NCBI GenBank assembly: GCA_013180625.2
Contig: SNVD02015981.1
Span: 558,001-622,000 of the forward strand
Length of the DNA stretch: 64,000 bases
Direction: 5' to 3'
Source of the DNA: Boswellia sacra
Lineage: Eukaryota; Streptophyta; Magnoliopsida; Sapindales; Burseraceae
Under the pieces are notes generated by a model. That model had not been told where the DNA came from. It saw nothing but the letters and a program-made list of their open reading frames with translations, and ran no database searches. Positions 12,782 through 63,789 of the stretch are shown in pieces. Both the position numbers and the translations under genes were made by a program. Position 1 is the stretch's first letter. The number at the start of each line of letters is the position of its first letter.

Positions 12782-12898
12782 ATGATTAAAGAGAAGATTT
12801 TGCTGCTGTCGGATCAATGGCGACGTACTTTCATGGCAACTCAGAAATCCAAGCTGCTGCTGCTGATGGGATGCAATTGCAAACTCTCTATCTCATGA
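12782..12898 (+). other. Upstream ORF overlapping the BLH1-like start
   Basis: An ATG at 12782 opens a 38-codon frame that ends at TGA 12896-12898. It runs across the main start (12817) in another frame. It lies after the candidate leader-intron acceptor, so it should be in the mature mRNA. Its start context is weak (C at -3, A at +4). Overlapping upstream ORFs usually lower translation of the main frame; that effect here is inference. Confidence 0.5.
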
Positions 12899-17535: not shown

Positions 17536-17876
17536 ACTTGAAGAATAATCTCAGCTCAAGTTCATCTTTGAGTGAGCAGTTTCTATTTATTGAAGGAAGG
17601 ATTACATCAACCTTTTACACATGGCTAACATCAGACTATCCAGCAAATAGTCTCTAACAAGCAAGGAGAAGGTTGCTGACTCACAAAACTTACTTGCCAG
17701 AGTGTAATGTTCTGGAAACAACACAGAAAGAAAAAAAAACATATTTACAGTTCATGACAGTTTTCCTTAACTAATTGTTAACTAACTAATAATTAAGGAA
17801 ACTAAGCATAATTGAAGACTGAATTAACTAACTAATTCACTCATCCTCTTTAAGTGATAAATGAGCCGCCTTAACA
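17536..17876 (-). repeat. 3' LTR of copia element 1
   Basis: It matches 29884-30227 over its full length. On the element strand it begins TGTTAAGGCGG. It is directly preceded by a polypurine tract reading TTTGAGAGGGAG on that strand. Confidence 0.93.
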
Positions 17877-20278: not shown

Positions 20279-20281
20279 TTT

Positions 20282-22231: not shown

Positions 22232-25200
22232 CTGTACAAAGAAAGCCATATCTACCACCAGTGTTGTGATTACACCAATTACAAGGCCCAAAACTCTATT
22301 AGCAACAGTAGATGAACCAATGTCAACATCGATCTACAGAAGTAGGAACTATGTTAAATCACAATTATTTTTCATGGTATAAGACCAGCTTTTTCAATGG
22401 TAAAATCATGAACTAGAGAAATCCAATAGTACTTACTTCTAAGTACTTCGGACCACGAATATAGTTGCAATAAACTACTTTTCCCAATAAACAAGGGGTG
22501 CTCCCAACACTCTGGCGCACAATCCATGATCCCTGCATGATTCAGTTCTGAAAATCAACAAAGTGCACAACAAATTTAACAGAAAGGGAAAAGCAAAGTG
22601 TTTCTCAGAACTAGAAGGAAGACCGAGGGCAACCGTATATTTATATCAGTGAAACTTGACAAAAGTACCCAAATTAAGATAGTACTTTCACAAGTAAATT
22701 TTCCCAACATATATTTCTCCATTTGTGGAGATCATTGATACATGAACTGTTTAGTTTGGCTTGGACAGCTATTATATGGCCTATGAACTGCTTGTCTTGG
22801 TTTCAGTGGTGAGAAGTTTACAATTCACAAATACATCGGTAAGTATTTATGGTAGCAAAGTGTACACCTAATGGAATCAATACTTCACTTGATAATTAAT
22901 TAAACCAACAACGGACTGAACTGAATCTAACAGTCCAGACATCCAAACTTAAATATTCTAATACATAATGGACTAAGCCAAATACCTTAGGAACTGATGG
23001 AATAAGCTTCAGTCTACTATTATGAAATTCATCATCACTATCCACAAACCGTTGCAAAAGAGATCCAGGTACCAACTTCTTGGTCACATAGTAAAATACC
23101 ATGCTGTAGTGCATCGAAGCAGGAACCTGCATAAGTGCTACATTATAACTATTCAACCTCCCAATGCAAAAACTTTAAAATTAAGACCTGGAGAATGAAA
23201 AAACTTACTTGAAGATTAAAGACAATTGAGAAAAGCCCTTTTTCTGAAGCTACCTATAAAGGTTTATAAATAATGTTCAGATTGTCACAGATTCAAAAGA
23301 AGAATCACAAACAACTCATATTAATAGATATATTATTAATAGTCTATATTGATAGATATATTAATAATAGTCTAAATAACAATTGACAAGTTGCCTGAAC
23401 TCTTAAGAAACAAAAGATATTTATTATAACTTAGTTGAAGTACTTTAGACAATTAGTTATGTTTCTTACTACGGGCCAAAACATCCAACTAATTCAAGTA
23501 TAGAGTTTTCAATGAGGTATATCCTCTTAAAACACTTAAGATTGTCATCAAAGGGGAGAATAATATAAGTATATCCAGGATTCAATTATTATAGTACTGC
23601 TATTTTGAAAAGGAATAATACAGCATCTTGGAGAAGGGATATTGGGGCTAAACACTGAGGTCTAGAAAAGACAAAAGCAGCAGAAAAATACGTTTTGATT
23701 AAATATGGGGAGAACAAAGGGAAAAAGGAAATAAAAAAACAAAGATAAAACAGGATAGGTTGCAATACTTGTGCAGCACATCCTGGACGCCTAGCCACGT
23801 GGTCCATCCTCTTTGTGTCTTTGAACCAATCAACAGCAACAAGATCCATTAAATGTTTCCCTGCAGAAATCTTCAAATACACATTGCATAGAATGAAATA
23901 AGCAAGCTGAGCAACAATATAAGATGTATAAAAAATGGCCATGATGTAAGATAAAAAGTAAATATCAGTTAACCTTTGATTTGTTACTACAAAAATGCTT
24001 GCTATGAACTCTGAAGTTGTTTCCATCAGAAATTCTCCAGCAGTCACGAGCATTCTCACGGTCATCACGTCGCAGATTACCCGAAAAACAAGATAAATCA
24101 ATTTTACTGGCTAGCTTTTCTTCTAAGGCTTCAATCAAAAGAAAATGTTGAGATTAGAGAACCTAACTAATTCGATGAAAGAGTTAACCAAACATATAAA
24201 AATGAATAGTTTAGACTGTCTCCTCTGCCAAGGCAGTAATAGAAATTGTTGAAATTAGCTAATTTAACCTGTTTTAGGAAAAGACTGTCTCAACCAAATA
24301 AATAAAAACTAATAATTTAGTTATCATCACCTTTTTTTTTATGTCAGTATCGTTATTTGTTTGGTGTGCCTGAAAAATCCCATAAAAAACCAAAAAACAA
24401 GAGTTTAGAAAGACATCAATGTTGCAAAGATGAAGACTTTTGAGTGAAAATTTGACCTCTTGTTCCGACTCAGCTATCTGATATTCTTCGTCCTCATCGA
24501 AGTATTCATCCATCATAGAGTTTCTTGCCGCATTCTAGTCAACAGAGGAAGATTGAACAGATGAAATATTTAGTTTCTGAATCCTCTTTGAAGAAACAGA
24601 AGCTGATGCCATATTGACCATCACAGAGATTCTGGGAGGAGCACCCCTCTCATCTGTTTGAGCAAACCATTTTCGTAGACCTATCATAAGAAGTAAAAAA
24701 CAAAAATGATAGCATTGTTATTGGAAGCAAAAAGTAAATTAATATATAAACCCATAAATAAAGTCCATCCAAATGTGTTGAAAGCTCTTAGACCTTTTCC
24801 ATTTCAACTGTTTGGCCCTTTGCATTTATATATAAAACAGAAGGCACAAAAGAATACTCCATTAAAAGGACTGTAAGAAAAAATAACACCAAATACAACT
24901 CATATTGCCTTCTGAAGCTGATTGCAGAATAACTATCATCTCACAAAATGTATGGTATTTTTCATTCTTAATTTAACTCTCCCTTCAAAGAGAAGGAAAA
25001 AGTTAAACAAATGAATAATTATGCTAATCATAAGTTACCTGACATAAATACTAGAAAGTAGCATGTAACTTATTGGTAAAGGAATCACAATATCATGATG
25101 GTACCTACATCAAGTTCCAATACTCAATGAAGGGATTCTTTCAAACTCATAACCGAAGGCAGAGGGATTCTATGTATTGATCAAAGTTAAAATAATTTTG

Positions 25201-27352: not shown

Positions 27353-27729
27353 TGTCTGTGCCTCTGAGAGAGAGAGACTGTGAGATGGAGCCCAATTGGG
27401 GTTTTCAGTAAATTAACGGATGAAATGGTGCTACAAATGTCGAAATGTCGGCAAAGAGAAATGAGGGAGATGATCAGAGTGAGAATGAGAAAGACTATAG
27501 GAGAAGCATGACAAGAGTGAGTGAGGGAGAAGATAGTGACGGCTAGGGCAACAAAAAAGTGAAAGAGGGAGTCAATTTATATGAGTGGCATTTTTGTAAT
27601 TTAGGAAAAAGGGGAGAGTGACATATAAATGAAAGCTTGGGTTTGACTTAGGATACGTGACACTCCCTTTTTTAAAATGACATATATTTCATAAAGGTAG
27701 TGACATAAAAACCTTAATTTCTTGTAGTG
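27353..27729 (-). other. Right end of CACTA 1, possible captured leader
   Basis: Purine-rich on the + strand, so CT-rich on the coding strand, as in plant 5' leaders. It includes TGCCCTAGCC on the - strand at 27541-27550. A similar word occurs near the right end of CACTA 2 (47844-47853). The final 130 bp have GTGACATA-type subterminal words. Confidence 0.5.
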
Positions 27730-27732
27730 TTT

Positions 27733-29857
27733 GCTTTACCTTGTTGTTCATGTGTATAAGGACATGCAACTCTAGATTCAATGCCATTTAGTTTTAGGAA
27801 ATCAGAAAAGGCTCTATACTCACCACCCCAATATGTTTGAATGCATTTAATCTCTCTTTCGAATTTCTTTTCAACAAAGGTTTTGAAGTTCTTAAAAGTG
27901 ACAAACACTTCAACCTTACTTTTCAAGGGATAAATCCAAGTATACCTACTATGATCATCAATGAAATGTATATAGTACTTAAAACCAGAACTGGAAACAA
28001 TTGGTGCTGGGCCCCAAATATCAGAGTGAACAATTTCTAAAATGTGTTTTGTTTTACTGACAGATTTATGGAAAGATAAAGAATGAGACTTTCCTAGTTG
28101 ACAGGCATCATAGAATTGAAAGTTTTCATTGCTATTTGAAGACTCATTACAAGTTTTCAATATTTGATGCAGAACTTTACTTGATGGATGTCCTAACTTT
28201 CTATGCCAAACACTAAGTTTTTCCATAGTAGACAAGCAATTTGGAACTGTGCAAATCAGATTACAAACTTTAGGCTCTTCTGAATTGCACTTAAGAAAAG
28301 ACAAACTATTCATACTGTTATTAAACTCAGCAGCAAAACTAGAATATTTTTGACTTCTTAATTGAGGACTGGACAAAGATGTAACTGATCTTCCGGAGGC
28401 TGGATTGATCTGATATAATCCTTCTTTAATTCTCCCCTGCAGCAGAACCCGGTGGGTGTGTTTGTCCTTCACAAGACACATATTAGAATGAAATTCAATG
28501 TAAATTTGATTGTCTTGTGCAAGTTTAGACACACTCAGTAAATTTTTGGTAATTTTAGGAACACAGATATTCTTCAAGTTTAAAGAAGTGTTCTTAGTAT
28601 GCAAAAGAGAGTGTCCTATATGAGAAATGGCTAATCTATTTCCATCACCTACTTAGAGAGTTTGTTTACCTTTGTATTCATTTCTCACATTGAGAAGTGA
28701 GGGGTCTGCAGTCACATGATTTGTAGCCCCACTGTCAGCATACCGTTCCTCATCTCCAACTGTTTCTAGTGAGGCTATAAAGGCTGATGAACTTCCTTGT
28801 GATCCATGCCAGTTTTACTGCTGCATAGGCCTTTGCCAATTTTGTGATTGAATTGATCCGAACTACTGCTGAAATTATTGTTGCCTATTGTTTTTATTTT
28901 TGCTTGATGAACCCATGTAGCTGAGATCAGTTCTATAGAAGCATATGGAAGCTGGATGACTAATTTTACCACAGATCTGACATATTGGTCGTGAGTTACC
29001 TGCTCTGCCACCTCTTCCTCTAGCACTTTTTCCATCATTTCCTCTACCGGACCCTTGGTTTTAATTCAGATTGTTGTTATGTTTTCCCATTGTAATATTA
29101 GCTGATGCTGTATTCAAGTTAAGATTGGAAAAAGTGTTTAACCTTTCTAACCTATTCTCATAGGTGAGTAAAATTGATTGAAGTTCCTGCCATGAGATAT
29201 TATCTCTGGACTGTATTTGGACAACAATTGGTGTATATTCACCATCTAAGCGACGAGTAACAAATGAAATTAGGTCACTTAATGAAACAGGACTACCAGC
29301 TATAGCCAATTTATCAGAAATTTTCTTCATGGTGATGAGATAGTTACTCATACTCATGGATCCCTTTCTAGTTATTTGCAGATCAAATCTAAGGTTTGCA
29401 ATCTGTGATCTATTTTTGATACCGCATAGAGTTTCTAAAGGCTTCCACAAATCACATGAAGAATTTTGTCCAATTACCTGAGCAGCTAATTGTTCTGTAA
29501 CTGATCCAAGAAGCTAGCCTTTCAACAGATTATCAATTGTGACCCACTCTTTATATTCGGGGTTATGCTTTAACTGAGAGGAGTGAAGCTAAGATTCCCT
29601 TTCATCTTCATGTGCAGTGACTGGAATGAACTCTGCTAGGCAAGCTTTTGTTCCTAGAACAAAACATCCAAACGTTGTCCTCTAAGAGTAGGCAGCATCA
29701 TTTCTTTCCAGATGATGAAGTTATCTTCATTCAGTTTCATTGGGAATGTTTGATTGAGAGAGCTGCCAAAGGGTGAGCTTCCACTTAGAATATTAGTCTG
29801 AGAATGAGAATCAGAATTTCTGCTTGTTGAGGATCGATTATGGAAGCTTGATGCCAT
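27733..29857 (-). pseudogene. Copia 1 gag, protease and integrase N-terminal part
   Basis: Read right to left. Gag starts at about 29857 (MASSFHNRSS). It has UBN2-type gag at 29450-29061 (ISWQELQSILLTYENRL) and a CCHC zinc knuckle CQICGKISHPASIC near 28990-28940. The protease region has the active-site motif DSGATNH near 28740. Gag-pre-integrase and the integrase core lie at 28604-27733 (HRKLGHPS, IHFIDDHSRYTWIYPL). A catalytic integrase Asp (normally in IQTDWGGEY) is Tyr here. Several stops and frameshifts break the frame (for example near 29510, 28800 and 28650). The frame ends at the CACTA insertion and resumes at 20278. Confidence 0.9.
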
Positions 29858-35637: not shown

Positions 35638-36090
35638 TTAACAAAGTCTTGGAGACTTTCGAACGGGAGGTTGTTCTTTAGCTGTGTCAAAAGAGGTGGT
35701 AGTGACTTCAGCTACAATTCTTTGAATCTCCCCATTATGTCTTTCTGCACTGGTTTTTGTTATGGGTAACTCAACAGCAGGTTGTTGAGTACGGTTACTG
35801 GTCTGCAAAAAAAAATTTCCAGAACAGGAAGAAAGAAACAAGATACGGGACAAGGAAGAAATTGTTGTGGGAGTATGGAATGAACAAGAGAAGCCCAAAA
35901 CCGATTTGTAATAAACTAGGCCAAATTTAAAAACAAGTTTGTTTTTAACAAAAATTAATGTCAAATTTATTTCCAAAACCGTTTCATAACTGACATTAAT
36001 GGACAAAAATTCAAATTTGAATAAGAAATCTAATAGAAGAAAACTTATGATATTGCAGATACAATTAATATAACAGTAAGCAGTGTTCAT
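35638..36090 (-). CDS. Extra ORF after copia 2 RNase H, unrecognised
   Basis: An open frame of 150 codons after the pol gene. The first half is hydrophobic (ISFLLLDFLFKFEFLSI). The second half is polar and ends PPVRKSPRLC. Sireviruses often have an additional, env-like reading frame in this position, but I see no specific motif to assign it. It could be translated or merely fortuitous. Confidence 0.4.
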   Translation of the reverse strand: MNTAYCYINCICNIISFLLLDFLFKFEFLSINVSYETVLEINLTLIFVKNKLVFKFGLVYYKSVLGFSCSFHTPTTISSLSRILFLSSCSGNFFLQTSNRTQQPAVELPITKTSAERHNGEIQRIVAEVTTTSFDTAKEQPPVRKSPRLC

Positions 36091-39000
36091 TCATGTAACT
36101 GACAGATGCCTAAGGTTTTTCTTAGATTTTCAAATCTTGTTATATCCAATGCCTTAGTGAACAAGTCAGCCAATTGTCTATCAGTGGAGATGTATTCAAT
36201 GTGTATCACCTTAGATTTTACTGGTTCCCTTATAAAATGGTATCTAATATCAATGTGTTTTGTTCTAGAATGCTGAACAGGATTTTTGGAATTATTTATA
36301 GCATTAGTATTATCACAAAACACAGTTATAGGCATTTGTTCAATACCATAATCACTCAACATTTGCTTCATCCACAATAGTTGTGTGCAACAACTCCCTG
36401 CTACTATGTATTCGGCTTTAGCAGTAGATAAAGAAATAGAATTCTGCTTTTTGCTGTGCCATGAAACTAAGTTAGTACCAAGCTAAAAACATCCTCCTGA
36501 AGTACTTTTTCTGTCATCTGCATTTCCTGCCCAATCAGCATCACTAAACCTTGCAAGATAATCATTTGTATCTTTAAAAAAACCATATTCCATAATCATA
36601 TGTTCCATGAACATACCTGATGATTCTCTTAGCTGCTGACAGATGTGATTCTTTGGGATTTGCTTGAAATCTAGCACAAAGTCTTACACTAAAGTACAAG
36701 TCGGGTCTACTTGTTGTGAGGTATAGTAGGCTGCCAATAATATTTCTGTACAAACTTGCATCAACATCTTTTCCTGCATTGTCTTTTGAAAGTTTTAGAT
36801 TAGTACTGATAGGAGTTTTCATTGGTTTTGCATTCACAAGCCCACACTTCTTTACAAGATTTTTAGCATATTTTGATTGAGATATGAATATTCCATCATT
36901 CATTTGCTTAACCTGTAATCCAAGAAAGAAATTTAATTCTCCTACCATGCTCATCTCAAACTCTTCCTGTATCAACTTAAAATCATTAGTTTTGCTTTTG
37001 TTAGTTGATCTGAAAACAATATCATCAACATATATTTGTGCAATAATAGGATAGTTAGATGCATGTTTGATAAATAAAGTCTTATCATTACTGCCTCTTT
37101 TATAACCTTTGTTGATCAAAAAGTTTGTCAACCTTTCATACCAAGCTCTAGGAGCTTGTTTTAAACCATACAAGGCTTTGTGTAATCTGTACACAAAATA
37201 AGGATGTTTAGGATCTTCAAATCCTTTAGGCTGCTCAACAAAGGCATCTTCATTGAGATAGCCATTTAAAAATATAGTTTTAACATCCATTTGATACAAC
37301 TTAAAATCAAGCGAACAAGCAATTACAAGTAGTAATATGATTGACTCAAGTCGAGCTACTGATGCAAAGGTCTCATCAAAGTCTATGCCTTCTACTTGTA
37401 TGTAACCTTGTGCAACTAGCCTAACTTTATTTCTAACTACTTGTCCACTTTCATCAGTTTCATTTTTGAAAATCCATTTAGTTCCAATGACATTTGCATT
37501 TTCTGGCCTATGAACTAATTCCCACACTTCATTTCTTTCAAACTGATTAAGTTCATCTTGCATAGCTTGAATCCACACATCTTCCCTTAAGGCTTCTTTC
37601 ATATTTTTTGGTTCAACTAAAGACACATAACATGCAAACCTTACCTGATTTCTTACTTTGCACTGAGTCTTCATCATGTCATCTAGTGTTCCAATGATAG
37701 AACTTGTTAGATATGCCTTCTGAATCCATGTAGGTGGATTTTTCTTTTCATCTTCTTCCTGATTGAATTTCTATTTAAATCTGAGTTATCAGATGTTACT
37801 GTTATGTCTGGTGTAACAGTCGCTATTTCTTCTTTCATAACAGCATCTTCATTTTTGTTATTGTTTGAATCTGACTTTGCTGAATCTTTTGTGAAGTTGG
37901 TTATCCTTTCCTCTTGTGAGTACTTTGCATAATCATCAAGATCATCAAATACTACATTTGCAGATTCCATGAGAGCCTCAGGTCTCAGATTGTAAACTCG
38001 AAATGCTTTGCTGTTTTGAACATATCCCACGAAGACTCCTTCATCACTTCTTGGATCTAATTTTCCTAATAGTTCTATGTTGTTTAGGATATAACACCTG
38101 CAACCAAAGACATGAAAATATTTCAAATTAGGTTTTCTTCCTTTCAAAATTTCATAAGGTGTCTGATTAGTGCCAAGTCTAAGAAAAACTCTATTTGAAA
38201 TATAACAAGTAGTGCTTATTGCTTCAGCCTGTAGCCTCTTAGTCAACTTCTTGCTATTGAGCATCACTCTAGCCATCTCTTGAAGAGTTCTATTCTTTCT
38301 TTTCACAATGCCATTCTGTTCAAGGGTTTTAGGAGCTAAAAATTCATGATCAATTCCATGATATTTGCAAAAGTCAGCATAGCTAACGTTTTCAAACTCC
38401 TTGCCATGATCACTTCTTATTCTCACAATCCTTCCAATGTTCCTATTTTGCTCATTTTCAAGCTTAACACAAAGATTCCTGAAAGCTTCAAAAGTGTCAT
38501 AGTTTTCTTTAATGAAATCAACCCAAGTATATCTAGAAAAATCATCCACACAAACAAATATATATCTCTTACCTGTAATGTTTTCAATTTGAATAAGACC
38601 CATAAGATCCATATGAAGCAAATCAAGTATTTTGGATGTGCTAAGATGTGGATTTGACTTGTATGAACTTCTAATTTGTTTTCCCATTTGACATGGTCCA
38701 CAAATTCCATTAACTTTGTCATCAAGTTTAAGAACTCCTTTTACAACACCTATCTTAGTTAATTTAACCAAGTCTTTGTAATTTAAGTGCCCTAATTTTT
38801 GATGCCACAATTCTAAATCTGAAAACCTGGTATGAAATGCAATCTTTACCAAATAACAATTATCTGAAGATCTATTACTTTCTAGAATGCATTTACCAAA
38901 ATTATCTAAGACCATGTATTTGTTTTGTGTGAAATTAATAATATACTTGTCATCACAAATCTGACTAATACTAATAAGATTAGCTTTCAAACCTTCAACC

Positions 39001-39293
39001 AACAAGACATTTTGAAAATTGGGTAGACCTTTGACATTCAAAGTGTCTTTACCAATGATCTTACTCTTTGCTTCATCTCTATAAGTGACGTTACCTTCCC
39101 TGTATGCTTTAAAATCTATTAAAAACTGTTTATTTTCAGTCATGTGCCTGGAACAACCACTGTCAAAATACCACAAACCGTTAGAAGTATGTTCAAGAGT
39201 AGTAAGAGCAACATGACATACTGTTTTGTCTTTCTTAACCCATTGCAGTTGTGATTTTGGTAATAATTTGAATTGTTTTGACCTTTTATGCAA
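36087..39293 (-). pseudogene. Copia 2 pol: protease, integrase, RT, RNase H
   Basis: Read right to left. The protease motif DSGCSRHM lies near 39160. Gag-pre-integrase has LWHQKLGHLN. The integrase core has HMDLMG, VDDFSRYTWVDF and RSDHGKEF, but the third catalytic residue, 35 residues after the second Asp and normally Glu, is Lys. Reverse transcriptase lies at 37677-36574, with FLNGYLNEDAFVEQPKGF, YGLKQAPRAWYERL and the intact YVDD motif. RNase H spans 36677-36087 with stop-interrupted frames (SDADWAGNADDRKSTSG, FCDNTNAI, KHIDIRYHFIRE). At least two frame breaks (near 37690 and 36480) make this a pseudogene. Confidence 0.92.
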
Positions 39294-40980
39294 AAAAATT
39301 TAACAATTTAAAGCATCTAGGCCTAATATGTCCCTTTTTATCACAAAAGTAGCAAATAGGAATGTATTTCCTTACCTTTTTAGGATCGAATTTGAAAGAA
39401 CTTAGAAGAGAATCAAATGTTTCACTGCTCTTCGAATTAGGACTTGACTTTAAAAAGTTAAGTTTAAAATTCTTACCTGATGTTGAAGCTTTCACAAACA
39501 CTGTGTTTGATAAAGATGCAACATTACCTTTTGTATACCCCAATCCATGTTTGTTGGAGTTATCTCTTCCAAGATTCAAGACCTGATCAAGTTTAGCTAC
39601 TCCAATTTTGAGTTGATCAACACACCTCTTGCTTTCAACCAGTTCTGTTGTGACTTTCTCAATATGTGCTGTTTTATCTGTCAAAATAGTTTTCAGTTCT
39701 ATGATCTGATTTTCAGTAAAGGATTTTTCACATTTTAGCTCCTCAATCTTCTTCTTTAAGGCTTTAATTTCTTTCTTCTGATTCAGCTATTCACTATAGA
39801 GTGCATTGTATGTCTCTTGTAACTCTTCATAGTATTCTAGTCCATCTTCTTCATCAGAATGATCAACACAGGTTCTACAATTTTCTGTTATGTTAGACAT
39901 AACAGCTTTCCCTTTATCAGCTGCAGATGCAGTAAAAACAACAAAGTTGCTCATGCAATCTTGATCTTCTGACTCTGATTTTGATTCATCACTACAGGTT
40001 GCTGTCAGTCCTTTGTTTTCCTTCTTAAGATTAGCACATTCAGATTGAATTTGCCCATAACTAGAACATTCATAACACTGAATCTGCCCTTTCTTTTTAG
40101 GTTGTTTTGCCTTCTTCTTATCATTCTCCTTGCTGAATTTTCTGAATTTTTCTTCACTTAAGTTTGATGGCTTTCCTTGATTCTTCTTCCTGAAATTTCT
40201 TTTCATAAACTTGACATAATTTCTTGTTAGAAAAGCAATTTGTTTAGAATCAGTTTCATCAAGCTCATTACTATATTCATCATCAGATTTTTCAGCTTTC
40301 ACATTAAATGCAATGCTTTTACCTTTTTGCTTCATAATACTCTGATTAATTTCAAAGTTTTGGAGAGTGTCAATCAGTTCATCAACCCTCATCTCATCAG
40401 TGTTTTTAACTTCCTCAATGGCTGAAATTTTAGGTTGAAATTTATCTGTAACAGACCTAATTATCTTGCTAACAATTTCTGCATCAGTGAAAGTTTTGCC
40501 AAGCGTGTATGTCGAATTTGTAATGTGACATATCTTAGAGTAAAACTCAGAAATTGACTCATCCTCATGCATCATCAGATTTTCAAATTGAGAATTTAAT
40601 CTCATCAATTTAGATCTCTTAACAGATGCAGTACCTTCATGTTTTACCTCAAGTATCTCTCATGCTTCCTTGGCCACTTTACACCTTGAAATCTGTCCAA
40701 AGTTGTTTAAGTCCACTGTAGCAAAAATTGTATTAAGAGCCTTTGAATTCCAGCTGGAACGTCGTTATTCTTCATCAATCCATTCATTCTTAGGTTTCAA
40801 TTCGGAATCAACAAAAGCATTCAACTTTGTTGGTGGTGTCCATCCTTTAAGCACACTAGTCCATGCCCTGTCATCAAGAGATTTGATATATATCATTATT
40901 CTTACCTTTCAATATGAATAATTACCATCATCATGAATGAGTGGTTGTGTTCCGGATCCTCCAGTGGGAATAAACTCCAT
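39286..40980 (-). pseudogene. Copia 2 gag
   Basis: The frame starts at about 40980 (MEFIPTGGSG), and stops interrupt it before 40608. The section 40608-39787 has UBN2-type gag (MRLNSQFENLMMHEDESISE, RVDELIDTLQNFEINQS). A zinc knuckle follows in which the His of CCHC is Gln (CYECSSYGQIQSEC). The section 39684-39286 has a second, intact knuckle (CYFCDKKGHIRPRC). A coiled-coil-like, Lys/Glu-rich stretch separates them. Confidence 0.88.
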
Positions 40981-51359: not shown

Positions 51360-52125
51360 ATAATGGACAAGCAATTTTCTTGAAGTTGATACATAAAGCC
51401 TCGATCTGGTGATCGAAAAGATTGGCTTTCAACTAATATTTGATTTTGATATGCTTCCTCATTCTCTAACTGAACATTTTCATCATCAAATTTGGAAATT
51501 CTCAGTTGATATCTTTCGAAAAAAATTATGTAACGCAATGCATGCCATCACTATATCATTTTGTGTCTCAAATGAGTACAGTGCCATTTTGTTTTAATAT
51601 TGAGAAACGAGCCTTCAACAACACTCCAAGAGCACGTTTAATGATATGTTTTAATCTAACATGGCAATGGTTGAATGTTTCCTCTTTTCCATTTGCTTGA
51701 CCACCGGCACGAAAGTCATTCAACCAATATCGAACATGACGATACAGTGCCATAAACCCCCATATGTGTGTATATGCAGCATCAACTAAATAATATTTAT
51801 GTAAAAAAAATTATTAGTCAAATAAATAATATCAATAAAATTCAAATCAATTAATTAAAATAATTATCAATAATATAACCTAGTGGTGGCTTTGGAAAAT
51901 TATGTTTCGGATCATTAATAGTTTCTATCAAAATCCTTGAATCATGTGCTCTTCCTTCCCATCCAACAACAACATATCTAAATATCATGTCAAAGTCACA
52001 AATTGCCAAAAACAAAACATTTTGAAAACATTCTCCTCTCCCACTACCTCTAAATGGTATTCTTTTATCAATTGGAATAGATGCATCAGTTAGAGTTCCA
52101 TCAATTGCACCAACAGCTCCTTATC
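51360..52125 (-). pseudogene. PIF/Harbinger transposase, DDE part
   Basis: Read right to left. GAVGAIDGTLTDASIP (first catalytic Asp), FRGSGRGECFQNV, then VGWEGRAHDSRI (second Asp) lie at about 52125-51900. An intron-like 110-bp gap follows, then YLVDAAYTHIWGFMALYRHV and LKHIIKRALGVLLKARF at about 51810-51570. These are signatures of plant PIF/HARBI1-like nucleases. Stops after TVLI and beyond inactivate it. Its N-terminal exon lies at the far end of the window (63790-64000), because a gypsy element has inserted into the intron between them. Confidence 0.88.
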
Positions 52126-52157: not shown

Positions 52158-52189
52158 ATTAACATAAGAACAACATAAATGTGATATAT

Positions 52190-53740
52190 TGATGAACACT
52201 TAAATACATATGTTTAATAAGAGCTTAATTCATCATATTGCATTAATTATGTCATTAAATTCCTCAACTTAAGCATATTTGTAGTCTTTACATCTTTTGA
52301 ATTAGTTCTATTTTAATTTTAGTTTTTGTTGCAAGTTAGGTAAAATGGGCATAACTTTCTATTTATAGATCAGAATAGTACAAATCTTGATTTGTTGGAA
52401 AGCTGATTAAATTATCTACAAGATCATATTTCATAAGCATTATCACATTCGGGCTCTTAGTAGACCAAAAATGGGCTTGAAATGAACCCATCTATAGTTT
52501 CAGTCCAGCCTGACCATGCCTCCGTATTTTGATCATATGTCTTGATATACGTATTCAAATCATATTAATCAAGATATTCTAGAAAGCTGAGAGAAATATC
52601 TACAACTTTCATAAAGACATATATCAAAATTTTAAATAACTCAGTGCTGAAATCGGTGGTCAAAGTTGGTGCACATGATGATTCAAATTGTCAACAAGAT
52701 ATTTTATAATTGTTTCTTTGTAATTTGACAAATTTGCCCATGAATGTATCTATAAATAGAGGTGTCTTGTGACCCATTAAGGCATCTTGGCCTTGGTTGG
52801 GATCTTTTATTATTGTGTTTTCTCTCTTGTCTTTTGTTTTCTTAATGTTATTAATAAATCATTTTCCTTTTGCAATTTATTTTCTTTATTGCATAATGTC
52901 TTGCTAAATTATCTTTTGCTAAGGTGAAAGAGTGAAACCCTTGATATGAGAATAGAGATTTTCTAACCCTTGACATGTGATTAATAATCATAATCTTGTA
53001 TTGTTTATTTTATATATTTTACATTTATTTTCTTAATCAATCTTGACACCATTCACAAAATAGAGGTCTTGATCCATTGTTAACAATCCTTGGCACATCA
53101 AATGCTCGGATCCTTTCTAGATGTCGTATAGTTCTTCCTTACTGACGCAAGTCTAGTTAGGAACCTTGATTTGTTGTAGACATATAATGATTGGCACATT
53201 GGATACTTGAATCAATTTATAAAAAGTGGTATAAATATTGGTAATGAAACAAATATAATTCATATGACTAAAATGGGCTTAATGACATATCTTCCGATTA
53301 GAACCTCCTTGATGTATGGATTCCAATTGAGTTATAATTGAGTTATGTATCCTTATTTGATATATCAAGGGTGGATCTCCTAACCTTAGCTTTCATTATT
53401 ATTATGTCAATTTCTCTTACTTGTGTATTTTAAGTATTCTTGTTTACTACTTATGAAATTGTTCCTTCATTCGCTATGGTAGGTTTTACCTCCGATTTCA
53501 ATGAATGGTTTTAACACCTTTTGTTTTTGTTTTACATTTGAATGGTCAATAGTACCGCCTACTATCTTTACTTATATTTGTTGATATTATCTTGTCATTT
53601 CTTTGAACTATTCATATCATATTTCTCGTCTATAATTTGTAGTGCTAAATCTCCTTTCTCGCGGATCGACCTCGGTCTTATCAGGTTTATTACTTTGACA
53701 CTCCTATACTTGAAAAATAATTCTATTTTTTGATGTGTCA
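52190..53740 (+). repeat. 5' LTR of the Athila-like element
   Basis: Starts TGATGAACACTTAAATA and ends GATGTGTCA. It matches 62202-63744 over the full length. Confidence 0.93.
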
Positions 53741-53746
53741 AGTTTT

Positions 53747-53764
53747 TGGCGTCGTTGCCGGGGA
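53747..53764 (+). other. Primer-binding site of the Athila-like element
   Basis: TGGCGTCGTTGCCGGGGA, complementary to the 3' end of plant Asp tRNA with one mismatch, six bases inside the 5' LTR. Confidence 0.85.
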
Positions 53765-53932
53765 AGGTAAAATTTGACGTACAAAATTGTAACTATTTTC
53801 TTTTCTCATTTTAGATCTTAAATTTTTTTTTGTATGTTCATCTTTTCTTTTCTCTTTTAAATTTGCATGAAAATTTAGTCACGTACATCTAGTGGTAGAC
53901 TTGCGAGGAAAACATCATCTTCCCTAGAAAAC

Positions 53933-54865
53933 ATGGCTGATAATCAAATGAAAACGTTCACAGATGAAGGGGACAATCGTTCCCAACAAAATGACCAAAA
54001 CCAACCAAGAACCCTTAAAGATTACATGAATCCGGTAAGGATTAGTGCACTATCTTATGTAATTTCTCCTCCCAATGCAATCCATTTCAATTTCAAACTA
54101 AGTTTCGTTCGACTTTTACCCACCTGTCATGGCCTTGATATGGAGAACCCATATTCACACTTAAAAATCTTTGAAGAGGTGTGTAACTCCTATAGTAATC
54201 CAAATTGTAGCATAAACACCATAATATTAAAGCTTTTTTCTTTTTCTTTAAAAGATATAGCTAGAACATGGTTATAAAATTTGAGGTCAAGTTCCATCAG
54301 TTTATGGGAAGAGATGAAACAACAATTTTTGAAAAAAAAATTTCCTACCTATAGATCAAATTCTCTTAAAAGACAAATCACCACTTTCACTCAAAAATAA
54401 GGAAAAACCCTTTATTAAGGTTGGGATAGGTATAAAGAATTACTTAATACCTGTCTTCACCATGATTTTGAAACTTGAAGAATAGTTGCACACTTCTATG
54501 AAGGGTTAACACGTCAAGATAGGCAACTAGTAGAGCTAATGTGTAATGGGCAATTTTAAGATAAAGACCCTGAGAAAGCAATTGACTACTTAGATTCATT
54601 AGCAGACAAAGCCCAAAATTGGGACACTGCTGGCACCTATGAGGTACCAAGCAAAGGCCCACCCTCTACATCTAATAGAGGCATATATAACCTTAGGGAA
54701 GACCATGACCTTCAAGCCAAATATGCATCCCTAGCTAGAAAAGTCAAGGCATTAGAAATAAAAAAGAGTGGTCAATTGAATTCTATTCAAGAAATTGTCT
54801 GTCACATTTGTAATTATAATGACCATCCTACTGAAAAGTGCCCAACTTTGCCTGCCTTTAGGTAA
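53933..54865 (+). pseudogene. Athila-like gag
   Basis: The frame begins MADNQMKTFTDEG. It contains the gag core (LLPTCHGLDMENPYSHLKIF, LFSFSLKDIARTWL, SISLWEEMKQQFLKKKF, AHFYEGLTRQDRQLVELM). It ends at a zinc knuckle CHICNYNDHPTEKC near 54808-54850. Stops after TWL, FTQK and TLY break it. Confidence 0.88.
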
Positions 54866-55579
54866 TGTCTCCATGAACAAGCCAATACCTTGAACACTTT
54901 CAAAAGGCCAAATCACAATCCATAATCACAAAGCCACAATCCTGGTTGGAGAAATCATTCAAATTTTAGTTAAAAAAATGACAATCATGCACAATCTTCA
55001 CAAGTTCCTTTTCAAACACAGCAAAATTTTCAAAATTCTCATGATCATACATATACTCCTCCCCTTAGGAAGGACCTTGAAGAAACATTGCATTCATTCA
55101 TTACAAAGTAAGAGACTTTCAATATTCAAACTGCTCAAACATTGATAAATTTGTCAGACACTTGCAAAATTTGCATCCACATTTAGCATTCAAGAAAAAG
55201 GAAAATTCCCTTCTCAAACATTGCAAAACCCCAAAGATCAATCTAACTTAAATGCAGGGAATGCAAGTAACCATTATGTGGACCAAGCTAAATCAGTCAT
55301 GACTCTTTGCAATGGTAAGATTGTAGAAAAACACATTCCTAAACCTTATGAGAAAGAAGATGAATCCATTTCTAAAGTAAGGAAAAGTTTACTAAAGTAA
55401 CACCAAGCGAAGAAGGAACCAAATCCCCACCTGTGCCTCTATTTCCTTAAGCATTAGCTACACAAAAGAAGCTAACTCACAATTCTAAAATCTTTAAAAT
55501 TTTTAAACAGGTAAAGGTCAACATTCCCTTGCTAGATGTGATCAAATAGGTACCTTCGTATGCAAAATTTTTAAGAGAA
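54866..55579. other. Athila-like spacer between gag and protease
   Basis: Decayed coding sequence rich in Asn/Gln/Lys with many stops and no recognisable motif, as is common between gag and protease in this group. Confidence 0.5.
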
Positions 55580-58500
55580 TTGTGCACTGTGAAACGAAAA
55601 TTGAATGTAAAAAAGAAGGCCTTTCTAGCCGAGCAAGTAAGTGCTATTCTTCAAAATAATAATACAGTGAAATATAAGGATCCAGGTTGTCCTATAATTT
55701 CATGTATTATTAGAGATTATAAAATTGAACGAGCTTTACTTGATCTTGGTGCTAGTGTGAATTTGCTTCCATACTCAGTTTTTTAGAAACTCAATCTAAT
55801 TGAGTTAAAACCAACTTCTGTGGCTCTTTTGTTTGCGGATATATCAATTAAAGTGGCTAAAGGAGTAGTAGAAGATGTGTTAGTTCTAGTTGATAAATTC
55901 ATTTACCCAGTGGATTTTATCGTCTTCGATACACAACCAATGGGAGTATGTAATTCAATTCCTGTCATTTTAAGGCGTCCATTTTTAGCTACCTCTAATG
56001 CTTTGATTAATTGCAGGAATGGAGTCATGAAGCTATCATTTGAGAACATGACATTGGAATCTAATATTTTTAATATGTGCAAACAACCACATGAAGAAGA
56101 TGATGAAATTGAGGAGGCTAATATGATTGAAACTATTATGGAAGCCCACATCCAAAAAGGGAGTTCCTCTGATCCTTTGGAAACTTTTTTAGTGAATTCA
56201 CTACATCAATTATGGAACTAGAGCTTGATCTTTCTGATATATGTTCTTTACTGGATTGTGCACAGGTGATGGAAAAGGCTCAAAACTACAATTCGAAGAA
56301 TTGGGGCAAATGAATGAAAGCGAGGAAGAGGAAGCTCCCAAATTAGAGCTGAAGCCCTTACCTAAAGGACTAAAATATGCATGTCTTTGAGAGAATCAGA
56401 CATATCCGGTGGTAATTTCTTCATCCCTTAGAAGCGAGCAATAAGGTAAGTTGATAGAAGTGCTTAAAAGGCATAAAAATGCAATCGTGTTGGACTTTAA
56501 AAGACATAAAAGGCATTAACCCTTTGATTTGTACACATAGAATATATTTAGAAGAAAATTCTAAAACATCCCAACAAACCTCAAATGAGATTAAATCCCC
56601 ACATGAAAGAGGTCATTAGGGCTGAAGTTCTCAAACTACTTGATGTGGAAATTATCTAACCTATTTCTGATAATAAGTGGATAAGCCCTACACAAGTAGT
56701 ACCTAAGAAATCTGGCATTACAATAGTAAAAAATGAAAATGGTGAATCATTATCGACTCGTATCTCATCTAGTTGGAGAATGTGCATTGATTATAAAAAA
56801 TTAAATGCTGTCACCAGAAAAAACCATTTTTCCTTACCATTCCTTGATCAAATTCTAGAAAGAGTAGAGGGGTACTCTTACTACTGCTTTCTCGATGATA
56901 CTCAGGCTATCATCAAATTCCCATTGCACTTGAAGACCAAGAAAAGACCACATTCACATGCCCCTTCAATACTTTTGCATTTAGAAGGATGCCTTTTGGA
57001 CTTTGTAATGCTCCAGCTACTTTTCAACGATGCATGTTAAGCATTTTAGTGATATGGTTGAGCATTGTTTAGAAGTTTTCATGGATGATTTAACTGTCTT
57101 TGGTAACTCTTTTGATAATTGGCTTGAAAACTTAGAAAGGTCCTTAAAAGGTGTGAAGAAAAAGGTCTTATTTTGAATTGGAAAAAATGCCATTATATGG
57201 TTACTTTGAGAATTGTCTTAGGTCATGTGGTGTCTTCTAAGGGAATTGAAATGGACAAAGCAAAAGCGGAATTAATTTCCCATTTGCCTCCACAAAAAAT
57301 GGTCAAAGAGGTCCGTTCATTCTTAGGGCATGCCAGATTTTATAGGAGGTTCATAAGAAATTTTAGTGTCATATCTAAAACTTTTTATAACATCTTAATA
57401 AAAGACACTTCTTTTGAATGGACTCAATAATGCCAAAATGCATTTGATAAGTTAATTAGACTTTTTAACAACTGCTCCAATTATGCAATCTCCTGATTGG
57501 TCCTTGCCTTTTGAATTGATGTGTGATGCAAGTGACTATACTATTGGTATTGTCTTAGGACAAAGTAAAGAAGGTAAGCCTTATATGATATACTATATAA
57601 GTAGGACTTTAAATGATGCATAAATGAATTACACAACAACTGAAAAAGAACTACTTGCAGTAGTATTTCTATTGGACAAATTTTGATCTTATTTAATTGG
57701 TTCTCCAAAGATTGTTTACACTAACCATGCAGCTGTGAGATTTTTTAATGTCTAAACAGGATACAAAACCTAAATTGATATAGTGGATCTTATTGTCCTA
57801 AGAATTCAACATCGCAATAAAGGATAAGAAAGAAGTCGAAAATGTCATTACAGATCATCTATCAAGATTAATGACAGAGACAATAATTAAAACTTCACCT
57901 ATCAATGACTTTTTTTCTGATGAATTTTTATTCTCTGTTGCTGCAATACATTGGTTTGCTAACATTGTAAATTCTCTTGTAATAGAAGAAATGCCACCTC
58001 ATTGGAATGCTCAAGACAAAAGAAAGTTTTTGACTGAGGTGAAAAATTTTTATTAGAATGACCTATATCTATTCAAATATTGTTCTAATCAAATAATTAG
58101 AAGATGCATACCCAACAATGACGTAAGTAGTGTCATTAATTTTTTGTCATTCTGAAGCATATGGATGACACTTTTCATCTAAAAAACAGCTATTAAAATC
58201 TTACAATATGGATTTTATTGGCCCACTTTATTTAAAGATGCACATGCATTTTGCAAAACTTGTGAAAATTGTCAAAAATTGGGATCCATTTCAAAATGAA
58301 ACATGATGCCTTCGAATCCCATTCTTGTTGTTGAAATCTTTGACTGTTGGGGTATTGATTTTATGGGACCTGTTCCACCATCATTTGATTTTGTGTACAT
58401 TCTTCTTGCAGTAGACTATATTTCAAAATAGGTCGAGGCAATTCCATGTCGAAACAATGATCACAAAACAGTTATCAAATTCTTGAAAGAGAATATCTTA

Positions 58501-59203
58501 TGTAGATTTGGAATTCCTCGAGCAATTATTAGTGATGGTGGGTACACATTTTTGAAACAAATCATTTGAAACTCTAATGAAGAAATATGGAATAACCCAT
58601 AAAATTTCTATACCTTATCACCCCAAACAAGTTGACGAGTTGAATTAGCTAATAGGGAGATAAAATAAATCTTAGAAAAAAGAGTTAACCTAAACCGTAA
58701 AGATTGGTCTTTAAGACTTAATGATGCACTTTGGGCTTACCTAATTGCTTTCAAAACATCATTGGGAATGTCTCCTTATAGATTAGTTTATAGAAAACCT
58801 TGTCACTTGCCAGTGGAAATTGAGCATAAACCTTATTGAGCCATTAAAACATTTAACACAAATTTGGATTATGCTTGCAAGTTACGGAATAAGGCTTATG
58901 AATATTCTAAAATCTACGAAGAAAAAATGAAGGTTTTTCATGACAAATCCAATGTTAGAAAATCTTTTGAACCTTCACAAAAGGTTCTTTTGTATGATTC
59001 AGGATTGCATTTGTTTCCTAGTAAACTTTAGTCTCGTTAGACTTTGTCTTTCCTTGTTAAAAATATTTTCTCTCATGGAGTTGTTGAAATTGAGAACCCA
59101 AAGAATGATAATGTTTTTAAAGTTAATGGACGACGGTTAAAACCATTCTTTAAACATTTTGACTATAATGAAGAGTCTATTGCTTTAATCGATCCTTTTT
59201 AAG
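55580..59203 (+). pseudogene. Athila-like pol: protease, RT, RNase H, integrase
   Basis: The protease (55580-56220) has ALLDLGASVNLLPYSVF, VDFIVFDTQPMG and RRPFLATSNALINCRNGVMK. Reverse transcriptase (about 56560-57430) has WRMCIDYKKLNAVTRK, FMDD near 57080 and GHVVSSKGIEMDKAK. RNase H (about 57455-57860) has FELMCDASDYTIG and TEKELLAVVF. Integrase (about 57990-59200) has the zinc-binding CKTCENCQ, then [24 protein letters not shown] and NREIK, and ends RLKPFFKHF. More than ten stops and several frame changes are present. Confidence 0.92.
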
Positions 59204-60210
59204 GATTGATTTTTTTCGGTCAAGTGGCGAATAGGGTACTTCGTGACTTTTAAAGTCGGTTTTTCAGTTTCCTAAAAACTGTTGCTCACCTTGCATTCAT
59301 TTTCTTTTCTTCTCTCTTATTTTCTTCACATGGATACCATTCTCTCGAATCTGCACAGACGTTTTCCCTCTCTTCCTCAAAATAATTTGCTTAAAATTTA
59401 CAAAGCTCGCGCAGAAAGACTAAGGATATTGATGTGCAAGGGTATTCTGCTGATTTAAGATGGTTAATTGAAGCCAAGGTTTGATTTTCTTGTGAATTTT
59501 CAGCTGATCTTGTTTCTCACATGCCGGGTTTGAGAAAAAGCTCTTACACCAAAAAGCAGAGAGCGAAAAGGTTACAAGTTTATCACAAATGTGCAAGATG
59601 GACTTGTAACCACATTGCCGCTCCTTAGGATATTTGTCTAACAATCGAGAGGATAAGATACAATTCATCAAGAATGGACTGAGTAGGGAGTCTTTGGATA
59701 ATATCCAATTGACTCTTGAGACGCATTCTTGTGGAATTGTGCAGCGTGAAATTTTGAAATCATGGACACAATTTCGAGAAGAGTAGGAACGTTTTAGTCT
59801 TGGAAATCTAACTCAAAATGACCATGTTTACTAGTTTATAAGAAAACTGGATAGGAAGCATATCCTCAACTCATAAAAGGTGTTTAAGCTGTTTCTAAAC
59901 GTAAAACGAGAGGAAGATATGAGCCACAGTCATAACTACCTCTACATATGCATGTGTGCTATCATTTTTAAATTTTTATGCCTTACAACTGTTATTTTTG
60001 AATTAATATCTCTATTTTTTGGTTGACTCATGCATTTATGGTGTCTTATTTCTGTCATTTTTTTGAATTTTTATGCTTTATTGTCAAACTTTTTTCAATA
60101 AACAACCGAGCTACCCGTATAGATGTCATCATTAGATTACCATTTTGCACTTGATAAATATGACTCTCTTGTTCTCCTCTTCACACATATAGTTAGAGAG
60201 TTGCATACAC
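59204..60210. other. Athila-like region between pol and the LOG-like ORF
   Basis: Contains short frames, including one starting MDTILSNLHRRFPSLPQNN at about 59331, interrupted by stops. Athila elements often encode a second, env-like protein here. I see no transmembrane or other motif to support that, so it stays unassigned. The last 100 bp form the leader of the LOG-like frame. Confidence 0.45.
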
Positions 60211-60840
60211 ATGGAGGGAACCTCAAAACGTCGAATCCAAAAGATATGTGTTTTCTGTGGATCTCGACCTAGAAAAAGTGAAGAGTTTGTAACAGTAGCA
60301 AATTATCTTGGTAGGCTATTAACTGAAAGAAAGATTCATGTGGTTTATAGGGGAGGTAGCCTCGGGTTAATAGGTTGTGTATCAACATCTGCACTCGTAG
60401 GAGGCAGTCAAGTTTTAGGTGTTATTTCTAAAGCTCTGGCTGTAGAAAGCATCATTGGAAAAATGGTTGGGAAGGAGTTACAGGTCTCCTCTATGCATAA
60501 ACGCATGACATACATACTTATCAATTCAGATGCCTTTATTACTTTACCAGGTGGCTTTGGTACTCTCGAGGGAATTTTTCAAATTGTCTCTTGGGCCTAA
60601 CTGAAACTCTATCAAAAACCTATAGGTTTGTTGAATGTTAAAAATTTCTTCGATCCTTTGATACATTTTGTTGATGCAGCTGTAGAACATAATTTTATCC
60701 TTCATTCGATGTGACAGATCCTTGTTTCTGTCACTACTGCTAGTGAATTACTTAACAAATTACAAGCAATCGAGTATGAACCTGACCCAGCTATAACTCA
60801 AATTAATTTGTCAGAGGGACAACAAAAAGTGCAAATTGGA
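60211..60840 (+). pseudogene. LOG: LOG-like cytokinin-activating enzyme ORF inside a retrotransposon
   Basis: LOG enzymes release active cytokinin bases from their riboside monophosphates in the cytosol. The frame begins MEGTSKRRIQKICVFCGS. It has the nucleotide-binding region (VVYRGGSLGLIG; the family has YGGGSVGLMG), GGSQVLGVISKAL, a MHKR segment (family MHxRK), and PGGFGTLEG, where the family motif PGGxGTxxE has Glu as its last residue. A stop (60598-60600) falls where LOGs have Gln in WAQL. Similarity continues in the same frame as KPIGLLNVKNFFDPL, AAVEHNFI, a second stop (60712-60714), then QILVSVTTASELLNKLQ and EPDPAITQINLSEG, near the normal length of about 215 residues. Plant LOG genes have several introns; this copy has none, which suggests capture of a spliced mRNA. 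It is not functional as read. Confidence 0.93.
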
Positions 60841-61901: not shown

Positions 61902-62201
61902 ATGATGAATGAATGCCCCCTACCTAAGGATGTTAGCCTTAACAAATATTAGAACTGATAAAAGTTCTTTCTAATAAGCCCCATAGTCACGTGTCGACTG
62001 AGCACAAAAAGAATGTTTGTTAATATCTTGACTGAAGGGTACATGAGTCTTTTAGAAAAAAGAAAAAAATTGGTTGAGAGTTTGTTTATTTGAATAGAAT
62101 CAATGAGAGTGCAATAATGATCACCTTGGATGGAAAATTCTATAAATCACTTCTAAATAATAACTCCTTAATTGCTAGGGACTATAAGCTGGTTAGGGGT
62201 G
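60841..62201. other. Athila-like 3' internal region
   Basis: A G-run (TTGGTTGGGGGGGAAGG, about 61001-61017) after a GATGACAATG word resembles a motif often seen in plant gypsy elements. Two diverged copies of a segment of about 100 bp (about 61600-61695 and 61755-61855) share TTAATAC/CTAATAC, CTAAGACTAACT-type and AAAGCT(C/T)G words. Microsatellites: (AC)n at about 61391-61407 and (TG)n(TA)n at about 61867-61904. No gene is visible. Confidence 0.55.
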
Positions 62202-63744
62202 TGATGAACACTTAAATATATATGTTTAATAAGAGCTTAATTCATCATATTACATTAATAATATTATTAAATTCCTCAATTTAAGCATATTTGTAGTATT
62301 TGCATCTTTTGAATTAGCTTTATCTTAATTTCAGTTTTTGTTGCAGGTTTGATAAAGCATAACTTTCTATTTATAGATCAGAATGGTGCAAATCTTGATC
62401 CGTTGAAAAGTTGATTAAATTATGTACAATATCTTATTCATAAGCATCATCAAGTTCGGGCTCTTAGCAGACCAAAAATGGGCTTGAAGTGAATACATCC
62501 GTAGTTTCAACCCAGCTTGACTATGCCCCCGTATCTTGACCATATCTCTTGATATAAGTATCTAAATCGTATGAATTAAGATGTTCTAGAAAGCTAAGAG
62601 AAATATCTATAACTTTCATGAAGATATATGATCAAAATTCTAGATAATTCAGTGCCAAAATCGGTGGTCAAACTCGGTGCTCAAACTCGGTGCACATGAT
62701 GATCCAAATTATCAACAAGATATTTTACAATTGTCCCTTTATAATTTGACAAGTTTGCCCATGAATGTATCTATAAATAGAGGTGCCTTGTGACCCATTA
62801 AGTCATCTTGGCCTTGACTGGGATCTCTTATTATTGTATTTTCTCTCTTATGTTTTGTTCTCTTAATGTTATTAATAAATCATTTTCCTTTTACAATTTA
62901 TTTTCTTTTTTGCATAAAGTCTTGCTAAATTCTCTTTTGCTAAGGTGAAAGGGTAAAACCCTTGATATGAGAATAAAGATTTTCGGACCCTTGATATGTG
63001 ATTAATAATCATAATTTTGTGTTGTTTATTTTATATGTTTTATATTTATTTTCTTAATCAATTTTGACACCACTCATAAAGTAGAGGTCTTAATACATTG
63101 TAGACAATCTTTGGCACATCAAATACTGGGATCCTTTCTAGATATCGTAAGGTTCTTCCTTAACGACACAAGTCTAGTTAGGAACCTTGATTTGTTGTAG
63201 ACATATGGTGATTGGCACATTGGATACTTGAACCCATTTACAAAAAGTGGTATAAATATTAATAACGAAACAAATATAATTCATATGACTAAAATGGGCT
63301 TAAATGACATATCTTCTGATTGGAACCTCCTTGATGTGTGTATTCTAATTGAGTTATAATTGGGTTATGTATCCTTATTTGATGTATCAAGGGCAGATCC
63401 TCTAACCTTAGCTTTTATTATTATTGTGTCAATTTCTCTTACTTGTGTATTTTAAGTATTCTTGTTTACTACTTATGAACTTGTTCATTTATTCGCTATG
63501 GTAGGTTCTACCTCCTATTTCTAGGATGGTTTTACCACCTTTGAATGGTTGGTAGTACCGCCTACTATCTTTACTTATAGTTGTTGATATTATCTTGTCA
63601 TTTCTTTGAACTATTCATATCATATTTCTCGTTCTATATTTTGTAGCGTTAAATCTCCTTCCTCGTGGATAGATCCTAGTCTTACCAAGTTTATTACTTC
63701 GACACTCCTATACTTGGGAGATAATCCTATTTTTGGATGTGTCA
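62202..63744 (+). repeat. 3' LTR of the Athila-like element
   Basis: Counterpart of 52190-53740, starting TGATGAACACTTAAATA and ending GATGTGTCA. Confidence 0.93.
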
Positions 63745-63789
63745 TATGTCTTATTCTTATACTAATTCATAAAAAGCATAATATATACC

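Follow-up and report, generated by a model that had tools for sequence, protein, structure and literature searches.

A NABP–LOG gene cassette, candidate host-conditioning pair, in an Athila-type retrotransposon lineage of Boswellia sacra

Host gene sequences transduced by plant LTR elements are described as intronless and in sense orientation in the available text of PMC7264820. For genes of the LONELY GUY (LOG) type, section 12 of PMC9289625 reports a YgdH domain in LTR-retrotransposon consensuses of Citrus and Populus, citing Steinbauerova et al. (2011). The presence of LOG in Athila-like elements is already published. Two Athila-like elements similar to LOGL4 were reportedly found by Steinbauerova et al. 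in 2011. Judged by titles and abstract openings, PMC9289625 was the sole relevant paper among those listed on LOG or NABP in retroelements, and the available text of the blackgrass and Retand papers contains no LOG in elements. Carlavirus and related CRPs are described as nucleic-acid-binding proteins that have a nuclear localisation signal and suppress silencing, and one such CRP as a transcription factor causing hyperplasia (available text of PMC8839810 and PMC12172455). For a cassette joining a gene of this type (NABP) to LOG, no report was found among the papers listed, judged by titles and abstract openings. According to its available text, the eORF survey PMC6317226 counted eORFs of at least 250 codons only, a threshold by which both NABP and LOG would be missed.

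The window, that is, the whole stretch of 64,000 nucleotides of Boswellia sacra DNA that was analysed (contig SNVD02015981.1, positions 558,001 to 622,000), contains an LTR retrotransposon on its + strand. The 5' LTR (52190..53740, + strand, TG...CA ends) and the 3' LTR (62202..63744, + strand) are repeats of each other, 87.4% identical in one blast alignment (K2P 0.113), and are flanked by an imperfect 5-bp target-site duplication, TATAT on the left (52185..52189) and TATGT on the right (63745-63749), with 4 of 5 bases matching. A primer binding site (PBS), TGGCGTCGTTGCCGGGGA, stands directly after the 5' LTR (53747..53764, + strand), and a polypurine-tract-like sequence, GGTTAGGGGTG, directly 5' of the 3' LTR (62191..62201, + strand). 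Among the 11 further copies of the genome with both LTRs in hand, the PBS is TGGCGCCGTTGCCGGGGA in 10, and the polypurine-tract-like site is GTTGGGGGGTG in all 11. We take this PBS to be of the tRNA-Asp type, the usual PBS of Athila.

Between the LTRs, all on the + strand and all decayed, lie a gag region (53879..55397; tblastn with the gag of copy L019 matches 54002-55397), an aspartic protease region (55537..56113), a reverse transcriptase (RT; 56564..57463), an RNase H (57389..57743), an integrase with H2C2 and rve parts (57742..58926), a NABP gene with a carlavirus-type Cys4 motif (59330..59873; three matched pieces, frame broken) and a LOG gene (60211..60828; interrupted by two in-frame stops and out of frame towards the C-terminal end). 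In other copies, the corresponding regions match Retrotrans_gag (PF03732; L019 and L026), Asp_protease_2 below threshold (L010), RVT_1 (L010, L013 and L015), RT_RNaseH (L015), and Integrase_H2C2 and rve (L010 and L013). The window remnants from 54002 to 58926 stand in the Ty3/gypsy order gag-PR-RT-RH-INT. In L015, the one copy compared in this respect, RT_RNaseH ends at 243 and H2C2 starts at 344, with no second RNase H family between them; in the available text of PMC6317226, lack of an archaeal-type second RNase H distinguishes Athila from Tat. Overall, the window element is an Athila-type LTR retrotransposon. It is a dead, older copy, with an LTR divergence more than twice that of the most diverged of the 11 other copies. 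We regard the identity of the element parts as close to certain.

The earlier note, made from the letters alone, had described a LOG-like frame at 60211..60840 between the integrase and the 3' LTR of an Athila-like element, and had read two in-frame stops and two changed conserved sites as decay of a once-complete gene. Its observation was confirmed and its reading is supported. The N-terminal 129 residues, all before the first stop, exceed the gathering score of PF03641 (3.2e-15). Read through to its end, with each stop written as X, the frame aligns with Arabidopsis At2g37210 (PDB 2a33) over residues 3-191 (1e-47), and it is 81.6% identical to the open copy L037 over residues 1-206 of 216, the last residues being out of frame. 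At2g37210 is presumably LOG3, and At5g11950 presumably LOG8. Both stops were seen on translation. The first Gly of GGGS is changed (YRGGS, for YGGGS in four of five open copies compared), as is the last Glu of PGGxGTxxE (GTLEG, for GTLEE in all five). The retroelement setting was likewise found as described, on the strength of the LTRs, their TG...CA ends, the PBS and the ordered gag-to-integrase remnants. The account of the region between integrase and 3' LTR was right about LOG and overlooked the decayed NABP gene upstream of it. A chance frame was considered for LOG and rejected, and misassembly is excluded by copy number. YRGGS also occurs in L009 (G000:C5653:376000-385999), whose 222-aa LOG frame is open, so that this substitution may be older than the window insertion or have arisen repeatedly.

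The window also contains pieces of a BEL1-like homeodomain gene (12790-16219, + strand; POX in two frames and Homeobox_KN in the third) and, on the − strand, an EDR2_C fragment that is a possible exon of an ENHANCED DISEASE RESISTANCE 2-like gene (23592-24110). Three decayed retroelements, Copia-like by eye, are all on the − strand (17837-20280, 27714-29513 and 36087-40659), the last two with gag_pre-integrs, Pol_BBD and rve matches in one frame each. A DDE_Tnp_4 nuclease fragment below the curated cut-off adjoins the 5' LTR (51851-52120, − strand); we take DDE_Tnp_4 to be PIF/Harbinger-type.

In the B. sacra genome, the NABP–LOG cassette is amplified, is open in many copies, is common to two element subfamilies and is under constraint. 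Within the 638.6 Mb searched, the N-terminal half of LOG gave at least 150 protein matches (11,333 first-look candidates), and 139 of the best 150, a set biased as best hits, have no stop within the matched stretch. A 24-base probe for subfamily-1 LOG, allowing up to two mismatches, was found at 1,050 + 1,076 = 2,126 places, their context not checked place by place; the same probe read backwards had no match in the genome. NABP gave at least 150 matches, and at least 19 of these copies show no difference from the query protein. Twenty stretches of up to 10 kb were fetched around LOG matches, hand-picked and mostly from long contigs, and in 20 of 20 LOG lies about 2 kb before the 3' LTR on the same strand. 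LOG is open over its full length in 26 of 44 distinct copies fetched (24 with the usual tail and two with a deviant end), a share biased upward since these are best hits; in the other 18 it is not fully open. All subfamily-1 copies except L029-L030 were found through LOG. NABP is matched in 41 of the 44 copies and fully open in 15 of those 41, some of the stretches being cut; in many copies it is broken or lost.

Both LTRs lie inside 11 of the 20 stretches. These 11 are short elements, with 6.2-6.7 kb between LTR starts, which contain gag and LOG and have no match to the integrase query; short matches to an RT-containing query were found in four, the first 300 residues of that query not being RT, and the RT match of L019 lies beyond its 3' LTR. 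RT and/or integrase matches were found in 8 of the 20 stretches, and neither in L028. The 222-aa LOG frame is open in 9 of the 11 integrase-less copies, all of which were found through LOG, and NABP is fully open in 6. Thus, copies needing a borrowed integrase can still carry LOG. In one of them, L017, only about 80 last bases of NABP are left (~4997-5076 in element orientation), in frame with gag, and LOG is open, so NABP can be lost with LOG retained. Among the 11 copies with both LTRs, the 5-bp target duplication is perfect in eight, matches at 4 of 5 bases in one and is absent in two, and the LTR K2P is 0.009-0.041. Plant LTR substitution rates are in the range of 0.7-1.3e-8 per site per year. 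At those rates, very rough insertion ages are 0.3-3 million years for the 11 copies vs 4-8 million years for the window copy, dating being limited to the stretches with both LTRs, which favours short integrase-less elements.

Open NABP copies encode a 182-aa protein that has a basic stretch as well as a Cys4 motif and matches two viral families above their cut-offs: PF05515 (Viral_NABP; 1.2e-7, 32.4 bits vs 23) and PF01623 (Carla_C4; 1.1e-6, 28.9 bits vs 20.9). Homologues number 339 at E <= 0.001. Among the 120 listed, the basic stretch is present in 108 and Cys4 in 102, and the named sources are Populus, Xanthoceras, Acer, Rhamnella and Orobanche; in 40 picked from these 120 and aligned, PF05515 was matched in 37 and PF01623 in 34 at E <= 0.001, and no other Pfam family was listed. 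An AlphaFold2 model of a NABP homologue built on 40 sequences was poor (pLDDT 67, pTM 0.32); compared with solved structures, the single protein gave one match at E 0.55 and the profile none. In IMG/VR viral contigs, three stretches fitted the LOG pattern and nine that of NABP, none of which encodes a relative.

NABP may instead be non-viral: either a basic Cys4 protein of the host or one akin to a retroelement nucleocapsid, which resembles carlavirus NABPs and was possibly their donor. The Cys spacing, C-X2-C-X4-C-X3-C, is unlike the carlavirus motif as quoted in the source text available (C-X2-C-X12-C-X4-C), the PF05515 match is confined to the central and later portion of the profile (positions 114-202 of 227), and plant homologues are many, all of which suit such an origin. 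On the other hand, both viral families are matched above curated cut-offs and recur in most of the aligned homologues, for which no other Pfam family was listed, and we consider a non-viral NABP unlikely, if worth keeping in view. A NABP of viral type is the reading followed below.

The LOG proteins of the element belong to the LOG family by score: L011 LOG gave 132 bits for PF03641 (cut-off 27) and 169.4 bits for TIGR00730 (cut-off 96.35). The catalytic motifs GGGS and PGGxGTxxE and the conserved Arg are present in the element LOG alignment; in the window copy the first Gly and the last Glu are changed, and L009 and L053 do not have the full set. Among 119 element-type LOG homologues, YGGG was found in 91, PGGxGTxE[EQD] in 97 and MxxR in 96; among 120 host-type LOGs, PGGxGTxE[EQD] was found in 111 and MxxR in 120. 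The element-type proteins also differ in their tail. An LxLxL end is present in 53 of the 119 vs none of 120 LOG3-like host LOGs, and a basic patch near the C-terminal end in 79 of the 119 vs one of the 120. LxLxL is an EAR-type co-repressor motif.

Such a tail would fit a LOG that has changed its job, with the Rossmann fold kept for structure or ligand and the tail acting as a nuclear co-repressor adaptor or as an RNA/nucleotide binder, damping host defence or regulating the element, and with cytokinin production dispensable. Along the same lines, the element LOG scores 111.7 bits against the NCBI phosphoribohydrolase equivalog NF058542, below its cut-off of 300, in a comparison that covers the element LOG only, and single open copies have an altered GGGS (YRGGS in L009 and YGEGS in L053). 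Against it, PGGxGTxE[EQD] and MxxR are kept by most element-type LOGs, as counted above, and both by five of five open copies compared. We regard a change of job as rather improbable, and continue with the element LOG as a putative cytokinin-activating enzyme.

Where did this LOG come from? Host LOG genes are represented by 16 exon-length best matches, 72-91% identical to the Arabidopsis LOG segment; the remaining matches among the 150 listed are 57-63% identical to it, with one further exon-like match at 66%. Together, an intronless sense LOG in the element and a host paralogue that probably has introns, judging by the exon-length matches, would make this a host-gene transduction. Of the 43 LOGs placed in a maximum-likelihood tree, all 22 of element type (20 homologues plus two B. 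sacra sequences) form one clade (99/95) and all 20 canonical LOGs another (99/85), a split that is partly expected as the two groups are the best hits of two different queries, with the canonical set almost all LOG1/LOG3-like and including the moss P0116 by name; bootstrap values had yet to stabilise, and the alignment includes some long rows. Both clades contain Diospyros lotus, Diplodiscus trichospermus and Primulina eburnea, as well as the genus Hibiscus.

Judging by homologue counts, relatives of both cassette proteins are many in other eudicots. By eye, the Rhamnella gene model P0196 joins an integrase C-terminus to NABP and P0212 joins NABP to LOG, so that the link to an element outside this genome is direct only in Rhamnella; elsewhere, member counts suggest it, and one Orobanche cluster has 328 members. 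Two partial LOG domains are present in each of the Xanthoceras proteins P0001 and P0025, which are probably fused models of neighbouring element LOGs.

A canonical LOG probe found at least 150 further places in the B. sacra genome that, by eye, do not overlap the LOG N-half matches and constitute subfamily 2. NABP is followed by LOG in all four subfamily-2 stretches fetched, and the LOG frame is open in three and split in L054. Between subfamilies, dN/dS of LOG was 0.176, 0.185 and 0.146 in three pairs (dS 1.25-1.58), and that of NABP 0.18 in a single, partial pair (106 codons); within subfamily 2, LOG gave 0.084 and 0.088 in two pairs. Since inserted copies decay freely, the true values for the line that replicates can be no higher than these. 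The dN/dS evidence is independent both of LOG having served as bait and of the way in which the tree groups were chosen. Within subfamily 1, synonymous/nonsynonymous LOG variants numbered 24/16 when present in at least four copies, 14/23 in two or three copies and 35/98 as singletons (Fisher p = 2e-4 for at least four copies vs singletons, 9e-4 for all shared vs singletons), with little change when the gapped row L045 was removed (p 4e-4). The corresponding NABP counts, from which the misaligned partial copies L017, L033, L036 and L039 are left out, were 12/12, 17/29 and 39/105 (p = 0.03 and 0.04). Both counts exclude sites at which at least three different letters occur (58 in LOG and 52 in NABP), and some shared variants may be recurrent as C-to-T and G-to-A changes dominate. 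Constraint on NABP inside subfamily 1 is weakly indicated. Overall, LOG and NABP are under purifying selection in the element lineage, and since selection has kept both, the pair probably helps the element.

These results bear on passive transduction, in which a host LOG mRNA was packaged, joined by chance and spread as useless cargo. It would account for an intronless, sense LOG, as in the transductions known from PMC7264820, and is in keeping with the dead window copy and with the 18 of 44 copies whose LOG is not fully open. The dN/dS of 0.08-0.19 strongly disfavours it, however, and shared nonsynonymous LOG variants are depleted, and the element-type LOGs of several eudicot genera form one clade; we consider it highly improbable. 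That an intronless host LOG gene or retrogene was hit by retroelement pieces has the intronless frame and nothing more in its favour, and is refuted by the constant distance from LOG to the 3' LTR in 20 of 20 stretches and by exon-split host LOGs that stand apart from those of the element (exon-like at 72-91% vs 57-63%).

The earlier note had named that last case, together with a LOG present in a single copy with no related carrier, as fatal to its reading. Host LOGs proved to be separate, exon-split and distant, and the single copy is contradicted by 2,126 probe matches. Its suggestion that an element family spreads LOG copies is borne out by those matches, by the same place of LOG in 20 of 20 stretches, by the 26 of 44 copies with LOG open over its full length and by purifying selection.

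We think it fairly probable that the element lineage carries the NABP–LOG cassette between integrase and 3' LTR as a host-conditioning pair. By analogy with known proteins, LOG, given its family and kept motifs, would raise active cytokinin locally upon transcription of the element, and NABP would act as carlavirus CRPs do, entering the nucleus and/or weakening RNA silencing. Together, they would keep the cell dividing and less silenced, favouring copying and germ-line passage. This combination of cytokinin and suppressor is a tentative mechanism, about which we have more doubt than confidence. The LxLxL tail may recruit host co-repressors to LOG or direct LOG to the nucleus. As for expression, the copies compared have a TTTTTCAG-like site (TTTTTTAG in L047) some 65 nt upstream of NABP and sites resembling CACATAG or CACAAG some 24 nt upstream of LOG; as putative 3' splice sites, these may give separate NABP and LOG mRNAs, by analogy with retroviral env. 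More speculatively still, a eudicot-wide Athila lineage may have taken up a virus NABP gene and a host LOG gene once, long ago, and kept both as a host-conditioning module consisting of a viral silencing suppressor or transcription factor and a cytokinin activator whose tail binds co-repressors. If true, the lineage would parallel, in plants, the retroviruses that carry oncogenes, and integrase-less copies would share the module in trans.

Extra ORFs of plant retrotransposons are often without evident purpose; here, two have a readable identity and measurable selection, and the role of extra ORFs for the element becomes testable by standard enzyme and silencing assays. The explanation proposed would tie cytokinin, and silencing suppression of the virus type, to the success of retroelements. 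For annotation, there is also a warning, since in a genome of this kind by far the most LOG-like sequences belong to elements and are not host cytokinin genes.

How does the cassette compare with known systems? The LOG-bearing Gypsy elements described earlier likewise have a LOG-type domain in a plant Ty3/gypsy element; section 12 of PMC9289625 gives the presence of the domain only, without a NABP partner, selection, tail, clade, integrase-less carriers or copy scale. With carlavirus CRP/NABP proteins, the element NABP has in common a basic NLS-like stretch followed by Cys4 and profile matches above cut-off, whereas it is longer (182 aa; in the source text available, the product of one carlavirus ORF is about 11 kDa), has a closer Cys spacing and is retroelement-borne beside LOG. 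Arabidopsis LONELY GUY enzymes have the family domain in common with the element LOG, as well as the catalytic motifs, and are 51% and 48% identical to the two segments; unlike them, the element LOG is intronless, forms its own clade and has a new C-terminal tail and an extreme copy number. The AlkB-like m6A demethylase of a Phalaenopsis Gypsy element is, in the available text of PMC9289625, also an extra domain kept in many copies, but is another gene in another lineage. Retand antisense TRP28 ORFs lie between pol and 3' LTR in many copies (available text of PMC11963269), whereas the two genes here are in sense. Maize Bs1 contains host gene sequence inside an LTR element, as here, and transduced aORFs are present in one or a few copies in the available text of PMC7264820, in contrast to the 2,126 probe matches and the purifying selection found for the NABP–LOG cassette.
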